DNA of 42,870 nt, taken from NCBI GenBank assembly GCA_001829495.1, contig MIBJ01000040.1:6855-49724 (forward strand). Direction: 5' to 3'. The notes under the pieces are model-generated. The model had not been told where the DNA came from. It was given only the letters and a program-made list of their open reading frames with translations, and searched no databases. The stretch's first letter is position 1. Each line of letters opens with the position of its first letter. Origin of the DNA: Spirochaetes bacterium RBG_16_49_21 (GTDB lineage: Bacteria; Spirochaetota; UBA4802; UBA5550). This document shows, piece by piece, positions 7,037 through 42,802 of this stretch. A program made the position numbers and the translations under genes.

Positions 7037-7225
7037 GCTTGCCCGAAATTTAATTCACCCCTATCGCTGCCGGGATACCCCAAATATGACTTGACTTGCC
7101 GTCTGATCTATGGTATCTATTAATTATTAATGCAAAATATTTGATTAGCCGAAAATAATACCAGACTCATCGAGCTTATTCTGTGAGACCGAAAGCGGGT
7201 GAGTATACAGAACGGAGGGAGCGAT

Positions 7226-7957
7226 ATGATATCCATGCAGCAACTTGAGGAGCTTGAAAACCGTGTTGTCAAGGCGCTACAATTGATCAGCGATTTACGG
7301 ACCGAAAACTCAAAACTTGAAAATGAAAATGAAGAGATAAAGGGCGAGCTGGAGGAAACCAAGCTGAGCCTTGAAGAGAAAGAGCAGGAGATAGAGAGAA
7401 TCCGAAAAGAACTCGACGCCGCGACCGCGGAGCTCGAGGATTTGAACGCCAAGGAGGAGGTTCTGGAGAAAAAGGTGATCGCGCTCCTCGGTAAGCTTGA
7501 CGGCCTGTCTGCCGGCGGAAGCATACCCAGCGGCGAGAGAATCGGGAGAAAACCCTCCCCGCCTGCGGGTGCGGCCCGGATGAGGAAAAAACCGCCGGTA
7601 TCCGATGATGATACCGTTGTTCTCGAAGATTTTAATGAGGAAGACGTCAGGGTGGAGACCGTTGAATCGAAGGACGCCGTCGATCTTGACGAGGACGACG
7701 ATATAATCATAATCGACGATGAAGACGAGCTTTCAGCGAAAAGCGGCGGTGGCGTCGCCCTGGAAACCGTGCCGGAGAGCGATGATGATATAATTTTGCT
7801 CGAGGAAAAGGACGAGGAGATTACCATTGACGATGTCGAGAACGATAAAGTTATAATCGATGAGGATGAAAAATCACGCAAAAGTCCGCCGAAGCGCCGA
7901 AGCAAGCCTAAAGAAAAAGACGATGACTTTTTGATCATCGAGGAAGATGACCGGTAA
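7226..7957 (+). CDS. Acidic coiled-coil protein, ZapB-like N terminus
   Basis: 243 residues. Residues 1 to about 90 form a strong heptad coiled coil (LEELENRVVKALQLISDL, then Glu/Lys/Leu repeats) like ZapB-type division proteins; residues 110-243 are a low-complexity acidic tail with repeated DDDIIIIDD-type blocks and a few Lys/Arg-Pro segments. ATG 7226 is chosen for GGAGGGA (7214-7220). It lies 20 nt before zapA, so a role with ZapA at the division ring is plausible by context. The acidic tail is much longer than in ZapB and is unexplained. Confidence 0.65.
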   Translation: MISMQQLEELENRVVKALQLISDLRTENSKLENENEEIKGELEETKLSLEEKEQEIERIRKELDAATAELEDLNAKEEVLEKKVIALLGKLDGLSAGGSIPSGERIGRKPSPPAGAARMRKKPPVSDDDTVVLEDFNEEDVRVETVESKDAVDLDEDDDIIIIDDEDELSAKSGGGVALETVPESDDDIILLEEKDEEITIDDVENDKVIIDEDEKSRKSPPKRRSKPKEKDDDFLIIEEDDR

Positions 7958-7977
7958 TCCGCCGGTGAGGTAATGCC

Positions 7978-8301
7978 GTGGATAGCAATAAAGTAACGGT
8001 GACGATTTTCGGCCAGACCTATACGATAGACGGCGATGCGCCGAAGGATTATATTCTCCGGCTGGCCGAATACCTTAATGATAAGATGGAAGAAGTCCGG
8101 ACAAACAGTTCGGTAACCAATCCGACTCAGGTCGCAATCCTCGCGGCGTTGAATGTGACGGACGAGTACTTCCAATTACAAAAACTTAAGTCAGGCACGG
8201 ACAACGAAGTTGAAAGAAAGACCCTCGCCCTTATTTCAATGCTCGATCAGGGCCTCATCGGAGATAGCTTCTCCCAACCCGCCGCCATGGTCAAAGATTA
8301 A
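7978..8301 (+). CDS. zapA: Cell division protein ZapA
   Basis: 107 residues with the ZapA pattern: VTVTIFGQTYTIDG at the start (beta hairpin), then AEYLNDKMEEVR and a long helix through VAILAALNVTDEYFQLQK. ZapA tetramers cross-link FtsZ filaments. Start GTG 7978 has GTGAGG 7 nt upstream. Together with the coiled-coil gene it forms a two-gene unit; no 6S RNA was evident downstream, where it sits in some bacteria. Confidence 0.85.
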   Translation: MDSNKVTVTIFGQTYTIDGDAPKDYILRLAEYLNDKMEEVRTNSSVTNPTQVAILAALNVTDEYFQLQKLKSGTDNEVERKTLALISMLDQGLIGDSFSQPAAMVKD

Positions 8302-8472: not shown

Positions 8473-8522
8473 AAATTGTATTATTGCATTTCCATGATTA
8501 TAATTATCCCGGGTATGCCGAT

Positions 8523-9038
8523 ATGGATTTGAAAGAGCTTATCAACAATCAGGAACAGGTTGATGTCGAGTTGTCGTCTGAAGAGGAGGGGGCCCTGCTC
8601 GCCGAAGGGGCGGTAATCCAGCTGGTGAGCTTTGTCCTGGACGATGTCGAATACGGCATTGATATTCTTGCGGTTCATGAGATATTGCGGTTTCCTGAGA
8701 TAGCGAGGCTGCCCAACGCGCCTTCTTTCATAAAAGGGGTTATCAACCTGAGAGGAAATATCATTCCGGTTGTTGACGTGAGAAAGAGGTTCGGATTCCC
8801 CAAAGCCGACATTACGCTCCTGACCAGAGTGATCGTTATTGAAACAAACGATAAACTGGTCGGGCTTATGGTTGATAACGTTCATCAGGTAGTGAGGATT
8901 TCACAAAACAGCATTGAGCCGCCTTCGGAGCTGATCGAGGGCGTGTCCGAAGTATATATCTGGGGCATCGGCAGGTTCCGGGAGCGGTTGATCGTCATCT
9001 TGAATTTGGCGAATATTCTTTTCCTGGAAGAAGATTAG
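8523..9038 (+). CDS. cheW: Chemotaxis coupling protein CheW
   Basis: 171 residues; the CheW SH3-like fold starts at about residue 30 (VIQLVSFVLDDVEYGIDI) with PNAPSFIKGVINLRGNIIPVVDVR, the strongest family signature, and ends with a strand pair around RERLIVILNL. It links CheA to chemoreceptors. ATG 8523 is preferred; the open frame begins at a TTG 39 nt earlier without support. A ~28-residue acidic N-terminal extension precedes the fold. First gene of the cheW-cheA-cheB cluster. Confidence 0.93.
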   Translation: MDLKELINNQEQVDVELSSEEEGALLAEGAVIQLVSFVLDDVEYGIDILAVHEILRFPEIARLPNAPSFIKGVINLRGNIIPVVDVRKRFGFPKADITLLTRVIVIETNDKLVGLMVDNVHQVVRISQNSIEPPSELIEGVSEVYIWGIGRFRERLIVILNLANILFLEED

Positions 9039-9066
9039 CAGCAACTGAAAAAAACGGGGTTTTACT

Positions 9067-12000
9067 ATGGCCTTTTCTCTTGGTGAATATCAGGATATAT
9101 TTTTGGAAGAAGCCGACGAGCAGATTCAGGAGCTCAATCAAAATCTTCTTGAATTGGAAAAAAATCCGGACAATAGTGAGATCATCAACAATATTTTCCG
9201 CGCCGCCCATTCCTTAAAAAGCTCGGCTGCTTTTGTCGGTTTAAATGAGCTTTCAGACCTCGCGCACACGATGGAGAATCTTCTTCAGGGCATCCGCGAC
9301 GGGAGTATGGAGATTACCTCCGAGATAATCGATATTATTTTTAAATGTTTCGACGAAATCCGCAATGTGATAGACACGATAGGTTCCGGTGAAAAGCCTG
9401 TTCAAGAGTTTCAATGGCTCATTGAGGAGATTCAAGAGGTGTGCAGGGAATCCGCGAAAACAGAGCAGGTAAGAAAGGAGCCCGTTGCCGCGAGGAAGAA
9501 ATTTTCCCAGCAAGACTCCATACCAAAAACCGTACTCGATGCCGAGCTGCGAAAACAAATCAAGGAAGGGCTTGAGGACGGCCGCAAGTGCTGCGAGGTC
9601 ACCATTTTTATTGAAAAGTCGGCGCAGATGAAGTGGGTCAAGGCGCAACTCTTATTAAGCAACGTGGGAAGGATCGGGGAAATAGTCACCACATTCCCTT
9701 CTGTTGAAAACCTTTCCGATGACGAGATGAATTCGATATTCAAGGTCATCGTTCTTACCAATGAATCGATTGATACGATACGGAAAGCAGCCAATATCGA
9801 TCTGGTGTACCGGATTGACGTGAGGACGATCAGCCTTTCACGGAAGGACGACAAGCTGGTATTGAAATTCGGAGAGAGCAAGACCTTGACCGGCGCTCAG
9901 ATGGCGGCCGAGATCAGGGAGGAAAAGGATTTCCAGAAGGCGGACGGGGATTTTTTGCCGGAGCCTGAGGTGAGTGAAGGAACGCGGGAAGACGAAGAAG
10001 AGGAAGAGGACGAAGAAGAGCGGCTCGACGGTGAGAAATCCGCTGTCAGGGGAGGAGAAAGGCCGGAGCAGGATAGAAGAAAAGTGATTGTATTGAAGAC
10101 CGTAAAGGTCTCAATCGATAAACTCGATCTTTTGCTCAATAACGTCGGGGAGCTGGTTATTGCAAACTCCGGCTTCTATAAGCTGTATGAGGAGATGCGG
10201 AAGATCAGCGAAGAGAAGGCAATCATCAACGAATTCAAGAGCCGTATGGAACAGATGTCGCGGATCGCCAAAGATCTCCAGAGCGGAATCATGAAAACCA
10301 GGATGGTTCCGATCGGACAGGTGCTCAACCGGTTCAAGAGGCTCGTGCGCGATCTTTCCAAAGAGTTCGGCAAGGATGTCGAGCTCATCCTCAAAGGAGA
10401 GGATACGGAGCTGGACAAGAAGGTGATTGATTCCATCGGCGAGCCCCTCATGCATCTGATCCGCAACGCCGTCGATCATGGAATCGAGAAGCCTGAAGAG
10501 CGGAAGCGGTTCGGCAAGTCGGAAACCGCGCATATCACCCTGAACGCCCACCAGAGCGGCAATCAGATATTCATCGAGGTGATCGACGATGGAATGGGCC
10601 TCAACCTCGACCAGATCAAGCGGAAAGCGATCGAGAAAGGCTTTGTCACTCCGGAAATGATCGGGGCAATGAGTGATTCGGATATTTATAATTTGATATT
10701 TACTCCGGGTTTCTCCACCGCCGCCAGGGTTACCGATATTTCCGGCCGCGGCGTGGGCATGAACGTGGTGAAAGAAATCGTAAATGAATTGAACGGCTCC
10801 GTGGGTATAGAGACCGAATACGGCATGGGTACGCGTTTTGTCCTGTCTTTCCCCATAACCCTGGCCATTATTCCCGCCATTATGGTGAAGGTCCGGCATG
10901 AGATGTACGCGATACCCCTGACCGACGTTATAGAGACGATCAAGATATCCCAGTCCGACTTCACCATTATCGAAGGGCATGAAGTGATAAATCTGCGGGG
11001 AGAGATTCTGTCCCTGCTGCGTTTGCCGCGTTTTGTCAATCTTAAGAGCGAACTGGGGCCGGATGATAAAATACCGGTCGTCGTAGTCGGTTTTGGGAAT
11101 AAAAAACTGGGGTTGATGGTCGACCGCCTGGAGGGAAAACAGGAAATCGTCATCAAGTCGCTTGAGCAGAATTACAAGACCGTGGAAGGCCTTGCCGGGG
11201 CGTCCATCCTCGGGGACGGGAGTATATGTCTTATCCTTGATATTTCGTCAATGTTAAACAAGGTCATAGCGGATCAGGACAAGCTTTCTAAATTTGACCG
11301 AAAGAGGCTCATGGATGCGGAAGCGGTTCAAATCGAAGAGGTCCAGTCCTTTGAGGAGAGCAGGGAGCAGGCTCCGTATGCCGGAAGGGATACGGAAAAA
11401 TCAAAGCGCGCCGTAAAGGACGGGGAAGCGGAGCCTGCCGCGGCCATGCAGGATGCCCGGCCCGTGGATCAGATAAAAAAACAGGTGCATAAAACCCTTG
11501 ATGAATTCAGGAAAGAATTACGCGAGAGCATCAAGTCGACCGTTGAGGAAGGCGAACCTTCCGAGCATATGGCGATATCCCTTGACATCACCGGCAGAGA
11601 TCTCGACGACTTCCGGCTGATAGCCAATATGGGGGCTACCACGGCAGCTGAATCCCTCTCTAAGATTTTAGACAAGCGGATTGACCTGTCTATCCCTGAG
11701 GTAACCATAAAACCGATCGAGTTGATTCCCAAGTATATCGGCGATATCGACAGCATCTATATGGGGATAATGATGCCCATACTGGGCGAGACGCGGGGCA
11801 CCATACTTTTTATTTTCAAAGAGAATATAGGATTTGAGATCATTAATCTTTTATACGGCATGGCTTTACGGAAGACCCGCGAGCTCAGTGAGGAAGGCGC
11901 CTCGGCGCTTGAAGAGCTTACGAATATCGTCGGCTCATCGGTCATCAATGTCTTTGGAGAAAAGGCCGGGCTCGTCATCCGGCCGGGCGTGCCCTCCATG

Positions 12001-12195
12001 GTGCATGACTATCTGCAATCGGTCATAGACTCGATTCTCGTGATCCATAACATGGTGAGTGATTATGCTATCGTCATGGACACCGCATTTTATTTTGAAG
12101 ATGATAAGATCATCGGAAACCTTCTGCTCATCCCCGAGGCGGATTCCTTAAAAACCATCGTCCAGCGTATGAGGTCAAATGTCGGGTCAAATTAA
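9067..12195 (+). CDS. cheA: Chemotaxis histidine kinase CheA with C-terminal CheC-like domain
   Basis: 1042 residues, far longer than the usual 650-750. Order: HPt domain with FRAAHSLKSSAAF (His48), a P2-like domain (about 160-270), an acidic linker, the dimerisation domain (about 338-400), HATPase with NAVDHGIEKPEER (about 460), DDGMGLN and GRGVGMNV, a CheW-like domain (about 598-730), a charged linker, and from about 834 a CheC/CheX-type domain. In that last domain the second active-site helix keeps the ExxN pair (LEELTNIVG) while the first has L in place of E (FRLIAN). CheC proteins dephosphorylate CheY-P, so kinase and phosphatase may be joined. Its end overlaps cheB by 17 nt. Confidence 0.93.
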   Translation: MAFSLGEYQDIFLEEADEQIQELNQNLLELEKNPDNSEIINNIFRAAHSLKSSAAFVGLNELSDLAHTMENLLQGIRDGSMEITSEIIDIIFKCFDEIRNVIDTIGSGEKPVQEFQWLIEEIQEVCRESAKTEQVRKEPVAARKKFSQQDSIPKTVLDAELRKQIKEGLEDGRKCCEVTIFIEKSAQMKWVKAQLLLSNVGRIGEIVTTFPSVENLSDDEMNSIFKVIVLTNESIDTIRKAANIDLVYRIDVRTISLSRKDDKLVLKFGESKTLTGAQMAAEIREEKDFQKADGDFLPEPEVSEGTREDEEEEEDEEERLDGEKSAVRGGERPEQDRRKVIVLKTVKVSIDKLDLLLNNVGELVIANSGFYKLYEEMRKISEEKAIINEFKSRMEQMSRIAKDLQSGIMKTRMVPIGQVLNRFKRLVRDLSKEFGKDVELILKGEDTELDKKVIDSIGEPLMHLIRNAVDHGIEKPEERKRFGKSETAHITLNAHQSGNQIFIEVIDDGMGLNLDQIKRKAIEKGFVTPEMIGAMSDSDIYNLIFTPGFSTAARVTDISGRGVGMNVVKEIVNELNGSVGIETEYGMGTRFVLSFPITLAIIPAIMVKVRHEMYAIPLTDVIETIKISQSDFTIIEGHEVINLRGEILSLLRLPRFVNLKSELGPDDKIPVVVVGFGNKKLGLMVDRLEGKQEIVIKSLEQNYKTVEGLAGASILGDGSICLILDISSMLNKVIADQDKLSKFDRKRLMDAEAVQIEEVQSFEESREQAPYAGRDTEKSKRAVKDGEAEPAAAMQDARPVDQIKKQVHKTLDEFRKELRESIKSTVEEGEPSEHMAISLDITGRDLDDFRLIANMGATTAAESLSKILDKRIDLSIPEVTIKPIELIPKYIGDIDSIYMGIMMPILGETRGTILFIFKENIGFEIINLLYGMALRKTRELSEEGASALEELTNIVGSSVINVFGEKAGLVIRPGVPSMVHDYLQSVIDSILVIHNMVSDYAIVMDTAFYFEDDKIIGNLLLIPEADSLKTIVQRMRSNVGSN

Positions 12196-13261
12196 TGTTT
12201 TGGTTGTTGATGATTCGGCGCTCGTACGAAAGATAATAACGGATTTACTGGAAATCGACCCCCGGATCAAGGTTATCGGAACTGCTGAAAACGGAAATTC
12301 CGCGATTGAGCTGAACCGCACGCTTAATCCCGACGTCATAACCTTGGATATCGAGATGCCGGTGCTTGACGGACTTGCCGCTTTACGAAGAATTATCGCC
12401 GAGAATCCCAAGCCGGTCATTATGCTTTCAGTATATACCCGGCACGGCGCTGAAGCGACGTTTAAGGCCCTTGAGTACGGTGCCGTGGATTTTGTGCCCA
12501 AACCCGTTTCCAACGTGTCGGCGTGGGCGGAGGAGATAGGCGAACAGCTCAGGACCAAAATTAAATCGGTTTATGAGTCAAACATCCTCGCGGGCGGGCA
12601 TATGTTTGCGCGGCCGTCCCATGCCCCATCCGATGACGCCCGAAAGCAGCAGGCCCCGGGAAAGGATGAAAGGGCATTCAAGAAAACCGATTCCAGCTCA
12701 AAGATAATCGGGATCGGGACCTCCACCGGAGGTCCTGCCGCCCTCATGGAGATATTCACAAACATACCGAAAAATTTCCCCTCGTCCATACTGGTGGTAC
12801 AGCATATGCCGGAGAATTTCACCAAGGCGTTTGCCGAACGGCTGGACAGCACGTCATACCTTAAAGTGAAGGAAGCGGAGGACAACGACCCCGTACTGCC
12901 CGGCTGCGGCTACATAGCACCGGGAGACCAGCATATCAGCATCGAAGAAAAAAATAAAAAGCTCCATGTAAGGGTGTCCCGGAGCGAAAAGGTGTCGGGG
13001 CATAGGCCTTCGATCGATGTTCTTTTTAATTCACTGGCCCACACCATGGGCAGAAATGCCATAGGAGTGATTATGACGGGAATGGGCAGGGACGGCGCTG
13101 AGGGAATCGTCAGGATAAAGACAGCGGGCGGCCGCACTATCGCTCAGAATGAGGAAACCTCGGTCGTTTACGGCATGAACCGGGTCGCTATTGAGAAGGG
13201 CAGTGTTGACGATATCGTGTCATTATCCGAAATACCTAAAAAAATTGTTGAATATATTTAA
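12179..13261 (+). CDS. cheB: Chemotaxis response regulator, protein-glutamate methylesterase CheB
   Basis: 360 residues. A receiver domain (DD at 11-12, phosphoacceptor D57 in ITLDIEMP, Thr/Ser switch region, KP near 104) is joined by a linker to the methylesterase domain with the Ser (GTSTGGPAAL), His (VVQHMPENF) and Asp (MTGMGRDGAEG) of the catalytic triad. It removes methyl groups from chemoreceptors once phosphorylated by CheA. The start overlaps cheA by 17 nt, implying coupled translation. No cheR is in the window. Confidence 0.96.
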   Translation: MSGQINVLVVDDSALVRKIITDLLEIDPRIKVIGTAENGNSAIELNRTLNPDVITLDIEMPVLDGLAALRRIIAENPKPVIMLSVYTRHGAEATFKALEYGAVDFVPKPVSNVSAWAEEIGEQLRTKIKSVYESNILAGGHMFARPSHAPSDDARKQQAPGKDERAFKKTDSSSKIIGIGTSTGGPAALMEIFTNIPKNFPSSILVVQHMPENFTKAFAERLDSTSYLKVKEAEDNDPVLPGCGYIAPGDQHISIEEKNKKLHVRVSRSEKVSGHRPSIDVLFNSLAHTMGRNAIGVIMTGMGRDGAEGIVRIKTAGGRTIAQNEETSVVYGMNRVAIEKGSVDDIVSLSEIPKKIVEYI

Positions 13262-13545
13262 CATTATCAGGTATATTGACAACGAGTTGGTAACGAGCTG
13301 GCTTAATAAAAGAGTATACTCGTAAAAAAATTAATTATTATTCCGGATAATTACGATATATTAATAGCTGCTCAGAAGGAATTTATTAATAGACTTGTTG
13401 AATAACTGAATTTTTTAGCGGGGTCTAAGGGGCGGAGCCTCTTAAAAAGCCCCCCGCAGGGGGCTTCCCCGAGCGCGAGACGGGAGTTTCGCAACAACTC
13501 AAATGCTCACGCTTGAACGGACAAGGAAGAAAATGGGGTAGGTGC
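13262..13545. other. Intergenic region with hairpins between cheB and cheY
   Basis: Contains two 10-nt near-repeats (AACGAGTTGG, AACGAGCTGG), a short palindrome GAGTATACTC, and a GC hairpin AAGCCCCC/GGGGGCTT (13447-13466) without a T-run. Just before cheY is GGAGTTTCGCAACAA (13483-13497), identical to 15 nt upstream of rpmI (6328-6342). A TTGACA occurs at 13276 but I could not pair it with a good -10. Confidence 0.5.
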
Positions 13546-13905
13546 ATGGCGACCATTTTAATAGTTGATGACGCAAAATTTATGAGGACTCTGGTAAAGG
13601 ACGCACTGGTTCCGGTAGGTCATCAAATCATCGGTGAGGCGGAGAATGGGAACGAAGCTGTTGAGTTGTATAAAAAATTGAAGCCGGAGCTGGTAACCAT
13701 GGATATAACCATGCGGGAAAAGGACGGCATCGAGGCGGCTGAGGAAATACTCCGTACGGACCCGAGAGCACGGATAATAATGGTCACGGCTCTCGGACAG
13801 GAGAATCTGCTGACGAGGGCTATTAAACTGGGTGTGAAGGATTTTGTTGTTAAGCCTTTTCCTCCGGAGAGGCTCCAGAAGGCTGCGGAGAAGGCGCTCG
13901 CCTAA
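13546..13905 (+). CDS. cheY: CheY-like response regulator
   Basis: 119 residues, a single receiver domain. Acidic pair D8/D9, phosphoacceptor D53 in LVTMDITM, Thr in IIMVTALG and Lys in FVVKPF are all present. Phosphorylated by CheA it would bind the flagellar motor switch. ATG 13546 is chosen, with GGTAGG upstream, over an in-frame ATG 33 nt earlier that would add a non-family leader. It is separated from cheB by 284 nt and followed by a terminator, so it is probably transcribed alone. Position in the cluster supports the chemotaxis role. Confidence 0.9.
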   Translation: MATILIVDDAKFMRTLVKDALVPVGHQIIGEAENGNEAVELYKKLKPELVTMDITMREKDGIEAAEEILRTDPRARIIMVTALGQENLLTRAIKLGVKDFVVKPFPPERLQKAAEKALA

Positions 13906-13940
13906 AATAAACGAATTGACTATAATCAGTATTATATTGT

Positions 13941-13977
13941 AAACACCCCTTATGATTCATGAGGGGTGTTTCATTTT
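13941..13977 (+). terminator. Rho-independent terminator after cheY
   Basis: AAACACCCCT (13941-13950) pairs perfectly with AGGGGTGTTT (13962-13971), an 11-nt loop, followed by a short T-rich tail (CATTTTG). Confidence 0.75.
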
Positions 13978-13989
13978 GATGCCTCTTGC

Positions 13990-14108
13990 TCCCTCCCCCT
14001 TGATGGGGGAGGGTTGGGGTGGGGGTGATGAATTTAAGAAACCAGATGATTTTGCATGCCCAAGAACCAAGCTCACCCTCCCCTTACCCCTCCCATCAAG
14101 GGAGGGGA
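13990..14108. repeat. Inverted pair of G-rich hairpin repeats, copy B (REPIN-like)
   Basis: The left unit (13991-14030) has hairpin CCCTCCCCC-ttgat-GGGGGAGGG plus a G/T tail; the right unit (14073-14108) is the same architecture on the opposite strand with hairpin CCCCTCCC-atcaa-GGGAGGGG. Two inverted REP units separated by ~40 nt match the layout of REPIN elements. It lies between the cheY terminator and scpA. Confidence 0.7.
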
Positions 14109-14157
14109 ATACTTTAATTAAAAATCGCCTAATTCGAGCAAGAAGGGAAATCTATTT

Positions 14158-14919
14158 ATGACGGAAACGCGGGAAAATAAAGAGATTAAAGAGGATAACG
14201 GCAATTATATCATCCATATAGATAATTTTGACGGGCCTCTTGGCTTGCTATGGGATCTGATAAAAAGATCGAAGATCGATATTACCGAGGTCTCCATATC
14301 CCGCATAACCGAGCAGTACCTTGATTTTCTCCGGATTATGGACAGGATGAACGTCAGCATAGCGGCGGATTTCATCCATATGGCTTCGGAGCTCCTGTTT
14401 TACAAGAGCCGCGCCCTGCTCCCGGCAGCGCAGATTGAGGATGAATATTTTGTTCCTCCCCTGCCGCCGGAGCTGGTCCAGCGGCTTCTGGAGTTTAAGA
14501 AATTTCAAGGCGCGTCCCGACGGTTGCTTGAGGAATTTGAGGCCAGCGCGAATAAATTCACCCGGGAGAACAGCCTTGAGGACATTGTAGGGCTTGACGA
14601 TTTCAGCGAGCTGTCGCTCTTCGATTTACTGAAGGCTTTTGCAGAGGTTATGGAATCCGTCAGGAAGGTGGAAGAGAAGGAAATTGTATTTGACGAGATA
14701 CTCGTGAGCGACAGGATGGAGGATATAAAAAAAATGGCCCGCGACAGGGATGTCTTGTATTTTGTCGATATCTTCACGGCCAGCCCTTCGCGCATGGAAA
14801 TAGTCGTTTCATTTCTGGCCGTTCTGGAACTCGCCCGGATGAAGATTATCAAAGTGATTCAGCATGCGGTTTATGGCATAATACGGATAGTGAATTTTAA
14901 TGGAAAAAACGAAAAATGA
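14158..14919 (+). CDS. scpA: Segregation and condensation protein A
   Basis: 253 residues. The N terminus IHIDNFDGPLGLLWDLIKRSKIDI is the ScpA signature that contacts ScpB, followed by ITEQYLDFL and LLFYKSRALLP, and a C-terminal winged-helix region for SMC head binding. ScpA is the kleisin of the bacterial condensin complex. ATG 14158 has AAGGGA upstream. It overlaps scpB by 20 nt and opens a long co-directional operon. Confidence 0.93.
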   Translation: MTETRENKEIKEDNGNYIIHIDNFDGPLGLLWDLIKRSKIDITEVSISRITEQYLDFLRIMDRMNVSIAADFIHMASELLFYKSRALLPAAQIEDEYFVPPLPPELVQRLLEFKKFQGASRRLLEEFEASANKFTRENSLEDIVGLDDFSELSLFDLLKAFAEVMESVRKVEEKEIVFDEILVSDRMEDIKKMARDRDVLYFVDIFTASPSRMEIVVSFLAVLELARMKIIKVIQHAVYGIIRIVNFNGKNEK

Positions 14920-15499
14920 CATTATCGAAAAGAATGATTCAGTTGAATCTTATGCTGAGCCGGATGATTCTTCAATTAAGGGTCTGATGGAAGCGGTGCT
15001 GTTTTTGAGCAATGAGCCCGTGCCCCTGTCTTTTTTCGTTAAGAATTTTTCACTTGATTCCACCCAGGCCAAGATTCTGCTCGATTCCCTTATTGATGAA
15101 TACGCGGACCGGGACGGCGGCATACGGCTTGAAGAAATCGCCAAGGGTTATCAGTTTGAAACCAATACCCGCTATGCGGAACAGCTGCGGCGGGTGAGCG
15201 GGGTAAAAAAACGTGAGGGACTGTCCAGGGGGATGCTGGAGACCCTGGCGATCATCGCATACAAGCAGCCGGTCGTGCTCGCCGAGATTGACGAGCTGCG
15301 CGGAGTGTCTTCCCGCATGATGGTGGTAAAGCTGATGGAACGGGGTCTTGTCAAGCCGGTCGGCCGCAAGGAGCTTCCCGGCCGCCCCCTTGCCTATGGC
15401 ACGACCAATGAATTTTTGCGGCATTTCGGTTTGGGCAAGCTGTCCGATCTGCCCAAGCTCTCGGAGATAAAGGAGTTTTCCATAACCGGGGATGAATAG
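14900..15499 (+). CDS. scpB: Segregation and condensation protein B
   Basis: 199 residues with two winged helices: LMEAVLFLSNEPVPLSFF near residue 30 and GMLETLAIIAYKQPVVLAEIDELRGVSS near residue 110, the strongest ScpB signature, then GRKELPGRPLAYGTTNEFLRHFGL. ScpB dimers bind the ScpA kleisin. It starts within scpA and its stop overlaps the pheA start by 8 nt. Confidence 0.94.
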   Translation: MEKTKNDIIEKNDSVESYAEPDDSSIKGLMEAVLFLSNEPVPLSFFVKNFSLDSTQAKILLDSLIDEYADRDGGIRLEEIAKGYQFETNTRYAEQLRRVSGVKKREGLSRGMLETLAIIAYKQPVVLAEIDELRGVSSRMMVVKLMERGLVKPVGRKELPGRPLAYGTTNEFLRHFGLGKLSDLPKLSEIKEFSITGDE

Positions 15500-35584: not shown

Positions 35585-36172
35585 AGTATCTCCTTTTTGG
35601 TTTTAATAATAATTTGTAATCATACGTTGACCATTGGGGGATTTCATTGAGGAAATACAAGTATTTATTTTTCTGATTCTTTTGATATGAATAGTTATCT
35701 CTTGCCAACACATCCTCCTCTTAACCACATAGGAAAATACGCTCTATTCAGAACCGGTCCTTTGATATAATACGGCTTACTCGTACTGCTTGTCCTGAGC
35801 TTGTCGAAGGGAGCACGTCGAAGTATCTATATCGGTTTTAGAAAGACGCTTGTACCGCTTTAAGCACCGGAAACAGTGGCTCAAATTTTCGCGCGCGGCC
35901 TGAAAAAAGGACAAGTACCACTGCCGGCAAGCCATCCGCAATTATGTATTTGACAAAACTAACAATTAAAAATATATTTCAATTCTCAACCGTTGCGCCC
36001 GTCATAGGTCTCGACTCTTCCATAGGAGCCTTGAGCGTTGGAATTGTATTTCTCGAAAATGCCGCCGGACATAGGTTCAAACTTCAAGCGGCCTTCTGTT
36101 ATCCAGAGGTTTTTCACACAATGCTTTTTATACCAATGTTTTGGATACGTCGAGAAGACAGAGGAGGAGCCC
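35585..36172. other. Gene-poor region with a dispersed-repeat-like sequence
   Basis: About 590 nt without a convincing gene. It holds CCTGAGCTTGTCGAAGGG (around 35801-35818), a sequence that I recall as a very common dispersed repeat in bacterial genomes, and possible coding traces on the plus strand (35840-35960) interrupted by a stop. Open frames here are short and unsupported. Confidence 0.5.
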
Positions 36173-36580
36173 ATGAAAAAAGAAGCGGGATTGTGGATCG
36201 ACCATAGAAAGGCGGTCATTGTAATTGTCACAGACAAAGGAGAGGAAACAAAAGAAATAACATCAAATGTCGAGAAACGCGTCCGCTTCTCCGGCGGTTC
36301 TCATTCCGTGAGCGCTGATGGACGACAGCAAGCCACGGCCGAAGACCAGCGCGACAGAAAATATGCCAACCATCTCAACCGATACTACGATGAGGTCGTT
36401 GCCTATATTCATGATGCGGAAACTGTTCAGATATTTGGTCCGGGTGAGGCAAAGGGCGAGCTCGAAAAACGTCTCGGAAGAAAAAATTTTGCCGGGCACG
36501 TTGATGTTATTGAAACCGTTGACAAGATGACGGACCGCCAGATTGCGGCAAAAGTCCGGCTACGATTTAAAGACGAGTAG
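36173..36580 (+). CDS. Conserved protein, eRF1/Dom34-like (baeRF-type) domain
   Basis: 135 residues: MKKEAGLWIDHRKAVIVIVTDKGEE, then a basic stretch and a C-terminal block with VQIFGPGEAKGELEKRL, a pattern seen in bacterial relatives of the eRF1/Dom34 release-factor domain. GAGGAGGA lies upstream of ATG 36173. Function uncertain: possible ribosome-associated protein. Longer in-frame starts upstream are not supported. The downstream lipoprotein begins 89 nt later. Confidence 0.6.
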   Translation: MKKEAGLWIDHRKAVIVIVTDKGEETKEITSNVEKRVRFSGGSHSVSADGRQQATAEDQRDRKYANHLNRYYDEVVAYIHDAETVQIFGPGEAKGELEKRLGRKNFAGHVDVIETVDKMTDRQIAAKVRLRFKDE

Positions 36581-36668
36581 TCACAATTTCTTTTTCTTTG
36601 CCGTACGGATTTGTCTTGCAGCGGAAGCGCAAACCCGTATATATAAAATATTAAAAAGGAGATACCAA

Positions 36669-36899
36669 ATGATAAAAATCAGCAAGAGTGTTATCGCAGC
36701 GTTGGCGGTGAGCGCCCTGATTGTCGGAATTTCCGGCTGCAAGAAACAGGGAACACCGGCCGAAGACGTCGGCAAGGAAATAGATCAGGCGGTCGACAGA
36801 GCAGGCCGGAAGATTAATACGGCGGTTGACAAAGCCGGCCAGAAGATTGAAAAAGCCGGTCAAAAAATGAAGGACTCGGTAAAAGACTCCAAGAAATAA
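36669..36899 (+). CDS. Small lipoprotein with amphipathic repeats
   Basis: 76 residues: MIKISKSVIAALAVSALIVGISGC with a lipobox ISGC, then a helical, charged tail with repeated GxK(I/M) units (VDRAGRKINTAVDKAGQKIEKAGQKMKDSVKDSKK in short pieces: DRAGRKI, DKAGQKI, EKAGQKM). Likely a small outer-membrane or periplasmic lipoprotein. ATG 36669 follows AAAAGGAG at 6 nt. Last chromosomal gene before the mobile element boundary. Confidence 0.75.
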   Translation: MIKISKSVIAALAVSALIVGISGCKKQGTPAEDVGKEIDQAVDRAGRKINTAVDKAGQKIEKAGQKMKDSVKDSKK

Positions 36900-37016
36900 T
36901 TGCACCGGCAAAATGCGCGGAAAAAAGCCGCCGATGCCGGATATTTCAGCGTATCCACCGTAATAATTAAGAAGGACACGGGAAGGGTTGAAAGGATCAC
37001 ATCGGGACTTAGGCTG

Positions 37017-37060
37017 TGGGCGCTACTGGACTTGAACCAGTGACCCTCTGCTTGTAAGGC
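37017..37060 (-). repeat. tRNA-Val(TAC) 3' fragment: attachment site remnant
   Basis: On the minus strand the sequence runs from the anticodon loop (GCCTTACAAG) through the T arm (TCACTGGTTCAAGTCCAGT) to the acceptor end GCGCCCA with no CCA. The 5' half of a tRNA is missing and the bases before the loop (GACC) do not complete the anticodon stem. This is what is left when an element recombines in the anticodon-loop region of a tRNA gene; the full tRNA is rebuilt at the far end. Confidence 0.78.
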
Positions 37061-37177
37061 GGTCTTTCCTAACGGACGTTTGGTGTCTCTGTGTGTAGAT
37101 TACTTTATTTATGTGATAAAAGTCAAGGATTTATTGGTATTTATGGGTAAATTCGTGTGTAGGTGTGCTTAAAAATT

Positions 37178-37199
37178 TGTCACACTCTATGTCACACTC
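37178..37199. repeat. Direct repeats next to the att fragment
   Basis: TGTCACACTC occurs twice, 12 bp apart (37178-37187 and 37190-37199), and GTGTG motifs lie between the tRNA fragment and them. They could be arm-type integrase sites, or the 3' end of a lost integrase gene; neither is proven. Confidence 0.35.
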
Positions 37200-37202
37200 A
37201 TA

Positions 37203-37478
37203 AATCGGAATTCTTATGCGCGGGAATATGGGCGGTCAGCGTAAGCGGCAAACTGGACCCGGGCCGCCCGGGTATATGGGCCATCCCGGAAAACTCTTTC
37301 CGAACTGGTCATCGGCAGCTATGCCTTGACGCCCGATATGGCCGTGTGGATCGGGGAAGCGATAGGCACCATGCCGGAAAGCCGGCTTGAAATGCAGAAC
37401 AGACTTACCCTCCGAGCGGCTCTTTTTTTGCCGTTATGTATTGTTCTTTTCTACTACTATATCTCCTTCCTCTCTTAA
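37203..37478 (+). pseudogene. HigA-type antitoxin remnant
   Basis: In one frame from 37254 the translation gives WTRAARVYGPSRKTLSELVIG and LTPDMAVWIGEAIGTMPESRLEMQ, the helix-turn-helix core of HigA/XRE antitoxins, but a stop codon lies 4 codons before and the N-terminal part (GEILMREY-like) is in a shifted frame near 37206-37240. The C-terminal end runs on into non-family sequence to a stop at 37478. No HigB toxin is seen. A decaying gene at the element boundary. Confidence 0.6.
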
Positions 37479-37902
37479 TCCTGCTCACTACCTATATCGG
37501 GGCGGCCCGGATCAATACAACTGTCAATGCGCAGAATAGGGCAGGGCCGCCGTGGAGCGGTTTTAGGATTGTGAGTAACATAGCATTGATGTCCAGAATT
37601 CAGGCTCCTGCCTTCACACCACCCCGCCCCCCCCTACCTCCGCTCACAGAGATTGTCTCTACATCACTCTCCTCACAACCCTACAACATCCCCCCTCCCC
37701 ATTTTTTAAGACTTCCGGATATTTTAGAAACCGAATAACCTTATAACAGGGCTATGTTTAGACTTTTCAATATTGGCAGAAAGCGCAGTTAAATTGAATT
37801 TGAATTAACACCTACAAAAAGGGAACCGTTTTAATTATGATTTTGGTAAATAATATTTGCACTTGTGCCTGAAATATTTATATTGGTGTTGAGGGTAAAA
37901 CC

Positions 37903-38100
37903 ATGTGGTTTGACTTTGGATTTTTCGACATCGGCATAAACGACTGGCCGTATCCTCACGATGTGAACATTTACGATCGTATGCTTGAGATTATGCCATT
38001 GGATATCATCGTATCTTTGCCGCTCTTATTCATTTCAATTACCGGGATCATCTATGGATTAATAATCATTAAAGAATTTATAAAGGGGTATAAGGGTTGA
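37903..38100 (+). CDS. Small membrane protein
   Basis: 65 residues: an aromatic, soluble N terminus (MWFDFGFFDIGINDWPYP) and one hydrophobic helix (about 33-55, LDIIVSLPLLFISITGIIYGLIII) ending in a basic tail (KEFIKGYKG). GAGGGT precedes ATG by 7 nt. No family recognised. It is the only plus-strand gene in the element here. Confidence 0.45.
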   Translation: MWFDFGFFDIGINDWPYPHDVNIYDRMLEIMPLDIIVSLPLLFISITGIIYGLIIIKEFIKGYKG

Positions 38101-38118
38101 TGAGAGACGAAGCCGGAA

Positions 38119-38301
38119 TCAACGTTCCAATAGTCGTTTTAATAATTCCTCAACCCCGTACCGGATAAGATCAGACACGGTGATTTTCCTGCCGGCTTCT
38201 CTGGACAAGATCGGTGCCTGCGCTTGTAAAGCGTTCCATAGTTTCGGCGGCATGAGAACCCGCCGTAATTCCATTTTTTCGTCGTATTTTTGAGGCCGCA
38301 T
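38119..38301 (-). CDS. Small ribbon-helix-helix-type DNA-binding protein
   Basis: 60 residues: RRVLMPPKLWNALQAQA followed by REAGRKITVSDLIRYGVEELLKRLLER, the strand-helix-helix pattern of RHH regulators, with the helix GVEELLKR-type end. Probably a small regulator or accessory protein of the element. A second open frame (38171-38386, minus) overlaps it and starts right after the upstream gene's stop; which is real, or whether a frameshift joins them, is unresolved. Confidence 0.5.
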   Translation of the reverse strand: MRPQKYDEKMELRRVLMPPKLWNALQAQAPILSREAGRKITVSDLIRYGVEELLKRLLER

Positions 38302-38387
38302 CTTTGCTTATCCTGGGCGCCGTTTTGATACTTCTCATTGCAGAGAAGTCGGGCTCGTTGAGTATTTGCTGGATATTATCGGCCATA

Positions 38388-39554
38388 TCAACGGTTCATC
38401 CTCATTTTTCGACGAAGGCGTTCTTCGGCGGCGTCCATGTTCCGTTGATTTCTATCCACGGAACGAAGGAAAAAATTCTGTACATCTCTTGCCGTGGTAG
38501 TTCCTGCCGATAGTATACCCGCGTTTCTGGTGTCAAATTTTTGATCGTCAACCTCATATTTACCGCCAAAACCCTCTTTAACTTTTATGGCGACATGGAA
38601 TCTTTGAGCGGCTTGTTCATACAAAGAAAGCCGTTGCTCTTCCGGAATATCCATTTGGAAAATATTTTTAAATGCGTTCTGAGCCTGAAGTTCTTGATCC
38701 GTGCGATATTCTTCAAGTTCTTTCGTGCTGAACGTCCGGGCCTGTCCTGTTCCCATGTGACTTTCATCAGTAAGATCGTACAATGTCAAACCAGGCCGTA
38801 TTGCCCTTCTTCCTGCGGCAAGCATATCATTCAGGTATCTTTCTGAGCCTGGCGGGGATGAAGACATAAACCCATACGATTTACCGGCATCCGCCTTGTT
38901 GGTGTACGCTTTATAGTGTATGGGCTTCCCTGCGCCACCGCCGACACCGGAAAGAAGCCGCCGCAATTCCGTTTCGGTCAGAGGACGCCGGTAAGTTTCG
39001 CCGATGTCTGTAAGCTGCGCCGCGGTTTTATTATAATTCTCGGCAATTTCAAGAGGGCTTTTACCCTTAATTGATTTATAGAAATTGTCAATCGTCTGCC
39101 GCATCGCATCCCCGGCTGTTTGGTAATCCAGAAATTTTTTACTACGGTATGGTGTCTCTTCCCATTGCTCGAAATTCTGCTCGGCGCCGATTGCCCCCGG
39201 TGAATTCGCGAGCTGTGACAGGTTTTGCAGAATATTCCCCTGTCCTTTCGCCTGCATTGCCTTGAGGTCCTCAATGGTTTTTGGAAGCTGTGACGGAACA
39301 CTCTGTTTTAAAAGCGCGTCCAATGCCGTCGCCGGCGCAGCCTCGGCAAGCTGATTCTGGATGAGCTGCTCTCTACCGGTAAGGTCTTCAAGTCCGGGTT
39401 TATCTCCAAGCTGCCGGCGGAGCTCAATCATTTTATTCAATTGGTCAAGCCGCATTTGCTTGTTTATCAATGCGGCCCTTTGCTCTGAATCACTGAGCTT
39501 TATGAGCGCCGCGGTTAATGTTGCGTATCCGGGGTCTTGCGGTATTACTTGCAT
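38388..39554 (-). CDS. Unknown 388-residue protein of the element
   Basis: 388 residues, soluble, with coiled N-terminal helices (LIKLSDSEQRAALINKQMRLDQLNK, LRRQLGDKP), a Gly-rich middle (LLSGVGGGAGKPIHYKAY) and a C-terminal half rich in helical charged residues ending RRKMRMNR. AGGAGAA precedes ATG 39554 by 5 nt. Function not recognised; helical, repeat-free scaffold-like composition could fit a virion-associated or structural phage protein, which is only inference. Confidence 0.5.
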   Translation of the reverse strand: MQVIPQDPGYATLTAALIKLSDSEQRAALINKQMRLDQLNKMIELRRQLGDKPGLEDLTGREQLIQNQLAEAAPATALDALLKQSVPSQLPKTIEDLKAMQAKGQGNILQNLSQLANSPGAIGAEQNFEQWEETPYRSKKFLDYQTAGDAMRQTIDNFYKSIKGKSPLEIAENYNKTAAQLTDIGETYRRPLTETELRRLLSGVGGGAGKPIHYKAYTNKADAGKSYGFMSSSPPGSERYLNDMLAAGRRAIRPGLTLYDLTDESHMGTGQARTFSTKELEEYRTDQELQAQNAFKNIFQMDIPEEQRLSLYEQAAQRFHVAIKVKEGFGGKYEVDDQKFDTRNAGILSAGTTTARDVQNFFLRSVDRNQRNMDAAEERLRRKMRMNR

Positions 39555-39681
39555 GACATTCTCCTATGAGAAAATTGACTCAAACAAAACGATTTGCAAG
39601 CCTTTTTTGTTAACTTATCCGATTGGTTCTATAGAGATCACACACTGCCCTAAAATCCTAAAAATATAAGCCGTAAAACCC

Positions 39682-39782
39682 CAATCCGTACAATGTTTTT
39701 GACCCTCCCTTGTGCCAGGCTGTATGTTTCAACGTCCATCTGAATTTGACCCGAAAAATCCCTAAATTCCCTGTACGGATTG
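39682..39782. repeat. Inverted repeat around the 39762 gene end
   Basis: CAATCCGTACA (39682-39692) and its complement TGTACGGATTG (39772-39782), 79 nt apart; the right arm covers the last codons of the minus-strand gene. Could form a hairpin or be a site for a DNA-binding protein. Confidence 0.4.
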
Positions 39783-40217
39783 ATGTTTTTTTTGCTCAAA
39801 ACCGGCCTTATCACAGGTCATCGTTAAAAGCTGTGATTTTTCTTTATTTTTTCGCGCATTGAACAGTACTTCCTGTCGTGCCTGCCGCTCTGCCTCGGTC
39901 AATTTGCGTTTCGGTTTATGTTTAGATAACCACTGATGAATCGCCTTTTCTTCGTCTCGACAATCGGGGTCAATCCCGCTAATGTTTTTCCCGATAATGC
40001 AATTACGCCGCAACATTTCAAGAGTGAAATACTTTTCCATGTCGTCAGCCCGTTTTGCAATCTTTCGTTGCACTTGGACAAAGAGATCATTGTACCGAGT
40101 GCAGATTCCTTCATCGGGGAACCAGCGATCATCCGTTAAATTTTCTGGACATAAAGGGGCACTACACGTTCCAAATTTGGGGCATTTTTCTTTTTGCTTT
40201 TCATTGTCGTTCATCAT
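39762..40217 (-). CDS. Cys-motif protein common in mobile elements
   Basis: 151 residues. N-terminal KCPKFGTCSAPLCPENLTDDRWFPDEGICTRY has four Cys arranged CPKFxxCxxPLCP...C, a motif I recall in phage and plasmid hypothetical proteins; the rest is basic and helical (KHKPKRKLTEAERQARQEVLF). Possibly Zn-binding, function unknown. GAGGTAA lies just upstream of the tandem ATG ATG start. Confidence 0.55.
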   Translation of the reverse strand: MMNDNEKQKEKCPKFGTCSAPLCPENLTDDRWFPDEGICTRYNDLFVQVQRKIAKRADDMEKYFTLEMLRRNCIIGKNISGIDPDCRDEEKAIHQWLSKHKPKRKLTEAERQARQEVLFNARKNKEKSQLLTMTCDKAGFEQKKHQSVQGI

Positions 40218-40244
40218 ACGCCATTACCTCCTCTGCATTCAATC

Positions 40245-40661
40245 TCACGCAGGACACGTATCGAAAAGCGTGCCCTGAATTTCAACCGGTGCGGGCCGTG
40301 TCCGTCGGAATAAAACGCCGGCAGTAATCGCCATCGTCTGTTGATAACCGCGCGTCAAAGTGGCCCAGCTGTATGTATCGCCCTGGTCAATGGAGCCGGT
40401 AAAGACCTGCTTCCCGTCGTCTCGGTCTTCCTGCTCCAATCTTAGGGTGGCGATCCTTCCCCGGTCGTCATCGATTGTTACCCGAATCTCGTCATCCGGG
40501 TCAACCGATAGGTTTTGAATCCAAGACCGGTGCGTAAATTGATTGCCCGGCTTATCCTGTTCCGCGTTGTGGCTCATGGCGAAGGTGCGGATTAAATGGC
40601 CGTTAATTTGCAATCGCGCTGCCAGCTTCATCGTTTCACCGTCGCATTTTATCAATTTCAT
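40245..40661 (-). CDS. Unknown 138-residue protein
   Basis: 138 residues, beta-rich, with WIQNLSVDPDDEIRVTIDDDRGRIATLRLEQEDRDDG and an acidic pI. The start (ATGA) overlaps the replication-like gene's stop by 4 nt, so it belongs to the same operon. I do not recognise the family. Confidence 0.5.
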   Translation of the reverse strand: MKLIKCDGETMKLAARLQINGHLIRTFAMSHNAEQDKPGNQFTHRSWIQNLSVDPDDEIRVTIDDDRGRIATLRLEQEDRDDGKQVFTGSIDQGDTYSWATLTRGYQQTMAITAGVLFRRTRPAPVEIQGTLFDTCPA

Positions 40662-41422
40662 CCGGCGGCTCCTGTTCCTATTAAATGATCTAATTTTTTT
40701 TGAAATCTTTGAGAAAGATTATCACTGGAGTTTCCAAAGGCTGTCGAAAGCGAATTTTCTGAGCTTCCGACGTTCCCCCTTATGGGGGGTAGGAGGGGGT
40801 GTTTTTTTCTTGTAATCTCTGACTTATAGTTTCTGTCTGTAGTCTCTGTTAAAGAATTCGCCAATTTGGTAAAATCCAATTCGCCAATTTGGTAAAAACC
40901 GTTTTCGCCAATTTGGTAAAAACGGACTTGTTTTTCGATCAAAATTTGCAAATTGTCAACATTTAGGGCGATATGCACTGTAGGGAAACTTTGAAATTTA
41001 TGGAGTTCCAAGTCGATAATTTTTAAATCCCGCAACGTTTCTAGATTCCGCCGTGCCGTTGTCGGTTTGATCCGACATTCGTCCCACCAATCTGAATTTT
41101 TTTTCACTAGCCAGAAGCGGCCATTTTTATTAATCCGAAGACGCGATTCGCTGTTTTTAGCGGGAAGATGCCAATAAATAATTTGCGAAAGCATCACACC
41201 GGCTGAGAGGGAGCCAGCAATATCAATATAAATGCGCTTTATTAAAATTGAATCGCTTTCAATTTCCGTCCATTCGAGGAAATCAAAACCATGCGACTTT
41301 TTTGATTGACAATTTCTGGGAGTTTCAATATCAGTAATTTTATTACAATCTCCAAAATCATTTAAGCTATTTGAAATAGCCCCGTTGGTTCCCACCGCGG
41401 GGTTTCTTATGCCCTCATTCAT
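40658..41422 (-). CDS. Replication-initiator-like (phage replisome-organiser type) protein
   Basis: 254 residues from ATG 41422 (GGGAG 9 nt upstream). Middle part DIAGSLSAGVMLSQIIYWHLPAK and KKNSDWWDECRIKPTTARRNLETLRDLKIIDLELHKF is a winged-helix pattern found in replication proteins of phages and integrative elements. Residues after about 165 come from DNA repeats: two FYQIGE units, then ITRKKHPLLPPIRGNVG from a G-rich hairpin repeat. The repeats look like an origin inside the gene, as in lambda-like O. An earlier ATG (41485) would overlap the small gene before it. Confidence 0.6.
   Translation of the reverse strand: MNEGIRNPAVGTNGAISNSLNDFGDCNKITDIETPRNCQSKKSHGFDFLEWTEIESDSILIKRIYIDIAGSLSAGVMLSQIIYWHLPAKNSESRLRINKNGRFWLVKKNSDWWDECRIKPTTARRNLETLRDLKIIDLELHKFQSFPTVHIALNVDNLQILIEKQVRFYQIGENGFYQIGELDFTKLANSLTETTDRNYKSEITRKKHPLLPPIRGNVGSSENSLSTAFGNSSDNLSQRFQKKLDHLIGTGAAG
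40772..40802. repeat. G-rich hairpin repeat, copy D (inside the replication-like gene)
   Basis: CCCCC-ttat-GGGGG hairpin followed by AGGAGGGGGTG and a T-run, the same architecture as copies A-C. On the coding strand it encodes a Pro-rich segment (KHPLLPPIRGN). Confidence 0.6.
40811..40848. repeat. Degenerate 11-bp direct repeats
   Basis: TGTAATCTCTG (40811), TATAGTTTCTG (40825) and TGTAGTCTCTG (40838), spaced 14 and 13 bp, inside the replication-like gene next to the 18-bp repeats. Confidence 0.5.
40857..40921. repeat. Three 18-bp iteron-like direct repeats
   Basis: TTCGCCAATTTGGTAAAA occurs exactly at 40857-40874, 40880-40897 and 40904-40921. Starts are 23 and 24 bp apart. Each contains the palindrome CCAATTTGG. 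On the coding (minus) strand two copies are read in one frame (FYQIGE) and the third in another (FTKLAN), so the DNA sequence rather than the protein is what is repeated. A typical layout for initiator-binding iterons. Confidence 0.68.
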
Positions 41423-41585
41423 CGCCATTGTCTCCCGATTGAATTTTTTCCGTAATCGTTCGCTCGACGCGCCTGACTTCACCACCGTGAATAATGACTC
41501 GAATTCCCGCCTCGCCGTAGTGCATCCCGGAAATCTGATCGCGCAGCCAGGCGATGTTGGTCTGTAATAATTTTTCGCTGTTCAT
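41415..41585 (-). CDS. DUF2292-like small protein
   Basis: 56 residues (MNSEKLLQTNIAWLRDQIS, then HYGEAGIRVIIHGGEVRRVERTITEKIQ). The YGEAxIxVxIHGGEVxxVERTxxEK pattern matches DUF2292-type proteins of phages and mobile elements. It overlaps the upstream HTH gene's stop as ATGA (41585-41582) and its own stop overlaps the start of the next gene, so the three are translationally coupled. Too short for a default gene caller. Confidence 0.68.
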   Translation of the reverse strand: MNSEKLLQTNIAWLRDQISGMHYGEAGIRVIIHGGEVRRVERTITEKIQSGDNGDE

Positions 41586-41794
41586 TGCATCACTTCGGTC
41601 GCATTGGCATTAAGCCACTGTTTGATTTTTTCGGGATCGAAGCGTACCGAGCGGCCGCACTTGATAAAGGGGATCGTGCGGTTCATTACATCCCGTCGCA
41701 GTTTGTGTTCCGATACGCGAAGATAACTTGCCAGATCGGAATATCGCCAGAGGGCGGGTTCATTTATTATTTGTTGTTGCATTATGGCCTCCAT
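41582..41794 (-). CDS. Excisionase-like helix-turn-helix protein
   Basis: 70 residues: ALWRYSDLASYLRVSEHKLRRDVMNRTIPFIKCGRSVRFDPEKIKQWL is the MerR-type HTH of the excisionase/HTH_17 family (DNA-binding helix around SEHKLRRDV, wing around IKCGRSVRFD). It probably regulates the element's replication or excision. It heads the leftward operon; a perfect 12-nt palindrome TGGAAGCTTCCA lies about 80 nt upstream (41873-41884). Confidence 0.75.
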   Translation of the reverse strand: MEAIMQQQIINEPALWRYSDLASYLRVSEHKLRRDVMNRTIPFIKCGRSVRFDPEKIKQWLNANATEVMQ

Positions 41795-41902
41795 GATTTA
41801 AGTATCATGAAAATAAAATAATAAATAATCGTAATGTGTAAAGCAGAATGGCGCTGAATGTATGGAATGTTGTGGAAGCTTCCAGAAAGATTCCAGAGGA
41901 TA

Positions 41903-42802
41903 TTATTTATGGTTTAATGCTTTTTGAATTATTTCTTTATAATGTTCGGGATTAACATTATAGTTCCGGCGGGCATTTTTAAAAGTGTATTTTGTATAAG
42001 AATATTTAAAATTTTTTCTTATAAATTTGTGTTGTAGCGCTTTTTTTGTCTGTTCGGACGTAGCTCCGGCTTTCGGTATATCCCATATATCTAACAATGC
42101 GATTATATTTTCAATATTGTTAAGTGATATTATATTTTCTCCTGTTAATCCTTTAATAGTTGTTTTTTGTGTTTGGGTAAGGCCATAATTTAAATCATAT
42201 AAATTTTTCTTCGATATTGTTTTTGATCTTTGATTTTTTGCCGCGGTTTGGTTACTCTCCAATTCATTGATTTTATCTATTATAGAATTGAACATCCATA
42301 TAGTGAACGGTATATCTGCCGGTGAATTGATTCCAGAATTAATTTCGTTAAGATCAATCTCCTCAATGCTAAAATTATCAGGGCCCCTTATAAGCCATGC
42401 CAATTGTTTTATACTAGGCGGTACACCACAGGGGAACCTTGACAGAAAATTTCTTCTGTTTTGCTTGAAGTAATCGTAATGACCTCCCGCCGTCTCTATC
42501 CTTTTTAGTATTAACGCTTTCTTTACCTCTATTGCTTCGATTGCTGATTCGTCAGTCAGCCATGTCGTGAGCGGAACTTCATTTCGTGGATGATTAGTTT
42601 GATAGTATGAAGCGCAGTGATAAATATATTCCCGTACTAATTTGTCAGTCTCAATGATTTCTTTGGCTCGTTTCTCAAGGGCTATAAATGATTTGCCTTT
42701 TAAAATTTTCTCTAATATTTGATCGGCTGTTTCTCGTCTGTTCTGATTTCTTAATGACGCAAGCGCCCTTTGCAGTTCTTCGTTTTTTGGTTCCTTCTCC
42801 AT
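41903..42802 (-). CDS. Unknown 299-residue protein of the element
   Basis: 299 residues, strongly helical, Lys/Glu-rich and AT-rich in codon use (NQNRRETADQILEKILKGKSF; KATKTQKTTIKGL-type stretches). No family recognised and no signal peptide or membrane helix. ATG 42802 has GGAGG about 8 nt upstream. It is separated from the HTH gene by ~110 nt containing a palindrome. May continue the element's cargo. Confidence 0.55.
   Translation of the reverse strand: MEKEPKNEELQRALASLRNQNRRETADQILEKILKGKSFIALEKRAKEIIETDKLVREYIYHCASYYQTNHPRNEVPLTTWLTDESAIEAIEVKKALILKRIETAGGHYDYFKQNRRNFLSRFPCGVPPSIKQLAWLIRGPDNFSIEEIDLNEINSGINSPADIPFTIWMFNSIIDKINELESNQTAAKNQRSKTISKKNLYDLNYGLTQTQKTTIKGLTGENIISLNNIENIIALLDIWDIPKAGATSEQTKKALQHKFIRKNFKYSYTKYTFKNARRNYNVNPEHYKEIIQKALNHK

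Follow-up and report, generated by a model that had tools for sequence, protein, structure and literature searches.

Fusions of CheC or CheX domains to F1 CheA kinases have been described for the spirochete class Leptospirae in a 2023 survey, the accessible part of which suggests that such proteins work both as kinases and as phosphatases (PMC10782961). In Bacillus subtilis, according to the accessible part of a second report, catalysis by CheC is minor (6% of that of FliY) and its binding to CheD matters more (PMC3513319). The locus studied here lies in a stretch of 42,870 nucleotides from Spirochaetes bacterium RBG_16_49_21 (the window), and carries a gene of the fused kind with the following features and neighbors:

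8484-9038, + strand: cheW (Pfam)
9067-12195, + strand: cheA-cheC fusion gene, 1042 residues (open reading frame and Pfam)
9067-9441, + strand: Hpt (P1) region, residues 1-125 (Pfam match 8-103), with AAHSLKS from residue 46
9595-9822, + strand: P2 response-regulator-binding domain, residues 177-252 (Pfam)
10096-11262, + strand: dimerization, ATPase and CheW domains, residues 344-732 (Pfam), with HLIRNAVDHG at 463, DDGMGL at 507 and GRGVGM at 560
11263-11577, + strand: charged linker, around residues 733-837 (identity comparison with two relatives)
11578-12192, + strand: CheC domain, residues 838-1042, matched part around 840-1036 (Pfam, NCBIfam and PDB matches)
11617-11628, + strand: degenerate first-helix motif L851-I-A-N854 (E lost, N kept)
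11914-11925, + strand: intact second-helix ExxN, E950-L-T-N953
12007-12009, + strand: D981, at the alignment position of residue 144 in 1xkr (T. maritima CheC)
12179-13261, + strand: cheB, overlapping the end of cheA by 17 bases (open reading frame and Pfam)
13513-13905, + strand: cheY-like single receiver, likely substrate (Pfam, NCBIfam)
14158-15499, + strand: scpA and scpB, frequent neighbors of the che block (Pfam and locus comparison)

The initial annotation had described this protein as a CheA of 1042 residues with a CheC-like domain behind its CheW domain, and the open reading frame and the Pfam, NCBIfam and PDB matches bear this out. The matches to Hpt (residues 8-103), P2 (177-252), H-kinase_dim (344-411), HATPase_c (460-597) and CheW (605-732) all exceed the Pfam cut-offs, and the motifs AAHSLKS, HLIRNAVDHG, DDGMGL and GRGVGM, which we take to be the phosphorylation and ATP-binding motifs of CheA, are all found, in such a way that both the domains and the motifs of a CheA histidine kinase are present. 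At the C-terminus, the CheC profile PF04509 scored 31.2 bits against a cut-off of 22, with its strongest stretch at residues 944-979, and the NCBIfam model CheC_Thtogales spanned residues 841-1035 (113 bits, E 1.3e-32, its equivalog cut-off of 250 not being reached). The top relatives of the domain in a PDB sequence search were the Thermotoga maritima CheC chains 1xkr (E 3.3e-19) and 2f9z (E 5.2e-19), with alignments that cover almost all of it. A structure model of the domain, built on three sequences, was of poor quality (mean pLDDT 49.6), and the top fold match of this weak model was again T. maritima CheC (E 2.7e-12). The domain therefore has the length of CheC, around 200 residues, and can be aligned with it from end to end, but of the two catalytic ExxN helices of the family the second alone is complete; the reading of one intact motif and one with L in place of E was correct, as E950 and N953 are present and L851 replaces the glutamate, N854 being kept. 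The Pfam CheX profile scored 16.1 bits, under its cut-off of 27, and a Pfam search at E 0.1 detected no SpoA/FliN domain C-terminal of CheC, as would be expected of a FliY; the CheC domain ends the protein.

The gene stands in a block whose order, cheW-cheA-cheB-cheY-scpA-scpB, was found at 13 of 18 loci picked for a neighbor check; the part from cheW to scpA was kept at 14 of them, the same 13 included. These 14 loci belong to the families f1, f2, f4, f5, f6, f11 and f34, supporting that the fusion sits in an old and conserved block over a large part of its range. In the stretch read at four loci from f22, f27 and f38 no scp neighbors were found. At least one additional che gene stands beside the fusion at 17 of the 18 loci, the exception being L116. 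An artefact of joining in a draft genome is ruled out by the recurrence of the fusion in relatives, mostly with the same neighbors at the loci checked. The lasting company of chemotaxis and chromosome-segregation genes (8484-15499 in the window, and 13 of the 18 checked loci) is an odd pairing in itself. Elsewhere in the window, a minus-strand frame of 351 amino acids (7120-8175) between rplT and cheW, overlapped by a frame on the opposite strand, has no Pfam or NCBIfam match, and at the right end (36038-42802) six scanned frames of 138-388 amino acids are all without a Pfam match at E 0.001.

Among the 40 window frames scanned with Pfam (the remaining ones mostly overlap others or are short), no further CheC, CheX, CheD, CheR or CheZ was matched. 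The claim that separate cheC, cheX, cheZ, cheD and cheR genes are missing is thus correct for the window, but it does not extend to the genome (3.8 Mb in 83 contigs, 94.7% complete), where three CheX-type proteins are encoded on contigs C8, C62 and C58 and a FliY-like protein on C15, the latter identified by eye on the basis of its N-terminus, CheC match and flagellar-looking neighbors. Two CheR proteins were matched on C15 and C31, and CheD twice, with one of the matches listed on C15, where CheD and CheR lie about 15 kb from the FliY-like gene. CheZ gave no match in the genome at E 0.001. The CheA dimerization domain was matched three times; two of these matches are on C31, in open frames of 706 and 717 residues, compared with 1048 for the frame of the fused CheA. 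All three CheX-type proteins and the FliY-like protein keep an ExxN aligned with the second-helix site, which rules out the fused domain as the sole phosphatase candidate. The initial reading survives these separate CheX-type genes, since a CheC match is found and the fused domain retains one full motif. At L013 (9395-10285) of the same genome, a CheX-type gene adjoins the gene for a CheY-like receiver, perhaps forming a private pair of response regulator and phosphatase.

To see how far the fusion extends, 392 genomes of the phylum were searched. The window's own domain sequence matched in 99 of them (E 1e-5) and a profile of 38 rows in 179 (E 1e-6), the latter number including FliY-type and unfused CheC proteins; CheA was matched in 335. 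Kinase sequence on the same open frame was found for 98 aligned rows, from 92 genomes and 19 family codes. Removal of the duplicates (L021, identical to L026, and L022, identical to L028) leaves 96 distinct rows, a count made after dropping L035 (G180, at a contig start, with the kinase absent from the frame), L063 (G195, with the domain over two frames) and L066 (G174, where a contig end cuts the domain). In the order of the window, which alone represents its class in the search, this CheC-type domain was found in 44 of 46 genomes and with kinase on the same frame in 42; the domain is whole on the kinase frame in 41, cut by the contig end in G174, on a frame without kinase in G180 and split over two frames in G195. 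The two genomes of the order that lack it are 85% and 72% complete. The fusion is old and widespread in the phylum. The split domain of L063 in G195 reflects either decay or an assembly error. Two CheA-CheC fusions per genome, some of them very diverged, are present in G002 (L102 and L106), G193 (L092 and L104), G168 (L089 and L108) and G115 (L118 and L119).

A tree of 120 rows needs two changes of the label "fused", the odd row being the very long branch L109, and a single fused clade is not rejected (p-AU 0.454), in a tree where several long branches meet and which omits six rows, three of them unfused proteins without either motif and three the CheX-type proteins from the window's own genome. 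The simplest reading would be that neighboring genes fused once, early on, and that the fusion later disappeared or was replaced in other spirochetes.

When the fused domains were aligned with T. maritima CheC, the E and N of the second helix were found in 96 of 96 distinct rows, and the E and N of the first helix together in none (E alone in 8, N alone in 68). Within the window's order, the N of the first helix is present in 41 of 41 distinct rows, and its E is always replaced by V, L or I. Of 199 well-filled columns, only 3 show no variation along a tree of the fused domains with a length of 59.9 changes per column; they hold the glutamate and asparagine of the second helix and a proline. 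As controls treated the same way, 25 unfused domains of CheC or FliY type were taken from other genomes in the phylum; both sites were kept in 20, the second only in two and neither in three, proportions that are no census, as these are five rows plus 20 chosen among the matches listed, mostly better-scoring, with most partial FliY-length matches left out. The three motif-less unfused CheC-like proteins were picked up by the same profile at 49-58 bits, so detection of the domain does not demand the motif; nevertheless, the 38 fused rows of the profile all bear the motif and those motif-less proteins score low, so diverged motif-less fusions could escape detection.

The first site may have been lost just once, early on, and the loss inherited, so that its absence from the 96 rows does not amount to 96 independent losses, and the lasting retention of the second site is the stronger argument. 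This retention makes an active CheY-P phosphatase with one site more likely than an inactive domain for docking, and gives support to the proposal in the initial annotation of a kinase carrying its own phosphatase. A pseudo-enzyme that binds CheY-P or the motor without hydrolysis would agree with the degeneration of one of the two CheC sites, but it is very improbable in view of a second motif that does not vary in 96 distinct rows, and of CheX-type proteins, for which one ExxN per subunit suffices. Docking as the sole role, the other option considered at the outset, is thereby weakened, and the domain may bind CheD in addition to any catalysis. The ExxN helix may perhaps be retained for binding CheY-P as well.

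Based on this conservation, we consider it probable that a CheA kinase here carries, on a flexible tether, a CheC-type phosphatase for CheY-P at its C-terminus. By the standard phosphotransfer chemistry of CheA, P4 would phosphorylate P1 and the phosphate would then pass to CheY docked at P2. The tethered CheC domain could catch CheY-P as it leaves the array and hydrolyze it through its one remaining ExxN helix, so that source and sink of CheY-P would be held at the receptor array in a fixed one-to-one ratio, with a putative effect on the lifetime of the signal. The kinase motifs, the P2 domain, the neighboring cheY, the absence of a CheZ match from the 46 genomes of the order and the closeness of the domain to T. 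maritima CheC speak in favor of such a tethered phosphatase, as does the comparison with two relatives, both uncultured Spirochaetes MAGs, where the CheC domain (71-75% identity) is more conserved than the linker (residues 736-837, 47-48%) or P2 (55-59%); the better conservation of the kinase and CheW parts (82-88%) weighs against it. The domain could alternatively be directed to a response regulator other than this CheY, for example a further CheY-like protein or CheB through its receiver, given that the cheB gene overlaps cheA and encodes a receiver domain, and that at least one further receiver-like protein is encoded in the genome beside a CheX (recognized by eye). This is very improbable, as the single-domain cheY of the same gene block is a simpler substrate.

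The distribution of the other phosphatases and of CheD in the 46 genomes of the order bears on the role of the fused domain. CheX is matched outside the fused frame in 45 of them (the exception is G201), so these cells need not rely on the fused domain alone for phosphatase activity; CheD is matched in all 46 and CheZ in none. Near-complete matches to the CheC profile are confined to the cheA-type domain, and the other CheC matches are partial and fall in frames of FliY length (352-394 amino acids) or CheX length. The CheD matches reach eight per genome (G180 and G064), more than one chemotaxis system seems to need.

With CheD in every genome and near-full CheC only with CheA, CheD binding has to be taken as a serious second role. 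A possible but tentative alternative to tethered catalysis is an adaptation module like the CheC of B. subtilis, in which the fused domain would retain CheD at the array at high CheY-P, thus lowering kinase activation, catalysis being secondary and CheC being fixed to the kinase instead of diffusing. The greater weight of CheC-CheD binding in that organism, as given in the accessible part of the report cited above (PMC3513319), and the CheD and CheR genes on the contig of the FliY-like gene are in line with it. The aspartate aligned with residue 144 of 1xkr, conserved in 41 of 41 distinct rows of the order, also agrees; D981 is presumably the counterpart of D149 at the CheD interface of B. subtilis CheC, a correspondence obtained by a numbering offset. 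Against this, the aspartate is replaced in 27 of 27 main-copy rows of f34 and f11 (by G in 23) and kept in 7 of 14 others in the same alignment, so that CheD binding would not be general, and conservation of this site falls short of that of the catalytic motif; in a larger realignment the aspartate column is gapped in 21 of 96 rows, which makes its alignment less sure. Tethered catalysis and CheD docking are compatible with each other. More speculatively, and somewhat doubtfully, the order's only full CheC, joined to CheA, could combine a CheY-P sensor, a one-site phosphatase and a CheD anchor, in such a way that CheY-P would feed back to the kinase through the tether within the array, a built-in adaptation loop unlike that of B. 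subtilis CheC, CheD and CheY-P, where CheC diffuses.

The architecture itself is not new, and the view of it as unusual was not upheld, since it is common in its own clade and published for related spirochetes (PMC10782961). Beyond what the accessible part of that survey gives, the present data add that the fusion occurs in many families, that it often sits in a conserved gene block, that one site alone is complete in the fused domains and that the window's order, known here from draft genomes alone, shows no unfused full-length CheC match. No experimental test of CheA-CheC or CheA-CheX function appeared in the titles and abstract openings of the openly licensed literature matches listed. Should the domain prove active, kinase and phosphatase would be coupled at one to one on a single chain in a large share of the spirochetes, a constraint on models for the shaping of the CheY-P signal in long cells. 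With its invariant single site, the domain offers a direct two-residue test of the published suggestion of a dual function, and an order that bears CheD and shows no unfused full-length CheC match makes it possible to weigh catalysis against CheD binding.

Among the systems that come closest are the Leptospirae F1 CheA fusions, which also join a CheC-type domain to CheA and for which the same dual role is proposed; their active-site state and gene order are not given in the accessible part of that survey (PMC10782961), and the window's class is represented in the search by one order of 46 genomes. The CheA3 of Rhodobacter sphaeroides, a bifunctional kinase-phosphatase, likewise has a phosphatase activity on the CheA chain, as proposed here, but no CheC domain is named for it in the accessible sources and it acts with a separate kinase, CheA4. 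In Escherichia coli, CheZ is held at the array by a short form of CheA, which also places a phosphatase beside the kinase, but it does so non-covalently and with an unrelated protein that was matched in none of the 46 genomes of the order. CheX has one ExxN per domain, aligned with the second-helix site of the fused domain, which differs from it in its CheC length, its degenerate first helix and its CheX score below the Pfam cut-off. The CheC of T. maritima (1xkr, 2f9z) resembles the fused domain over nearly its whole length, but it is unfused and has two complete ExxN motifs, whereas the domain of the window is joined to CheA and retains one.
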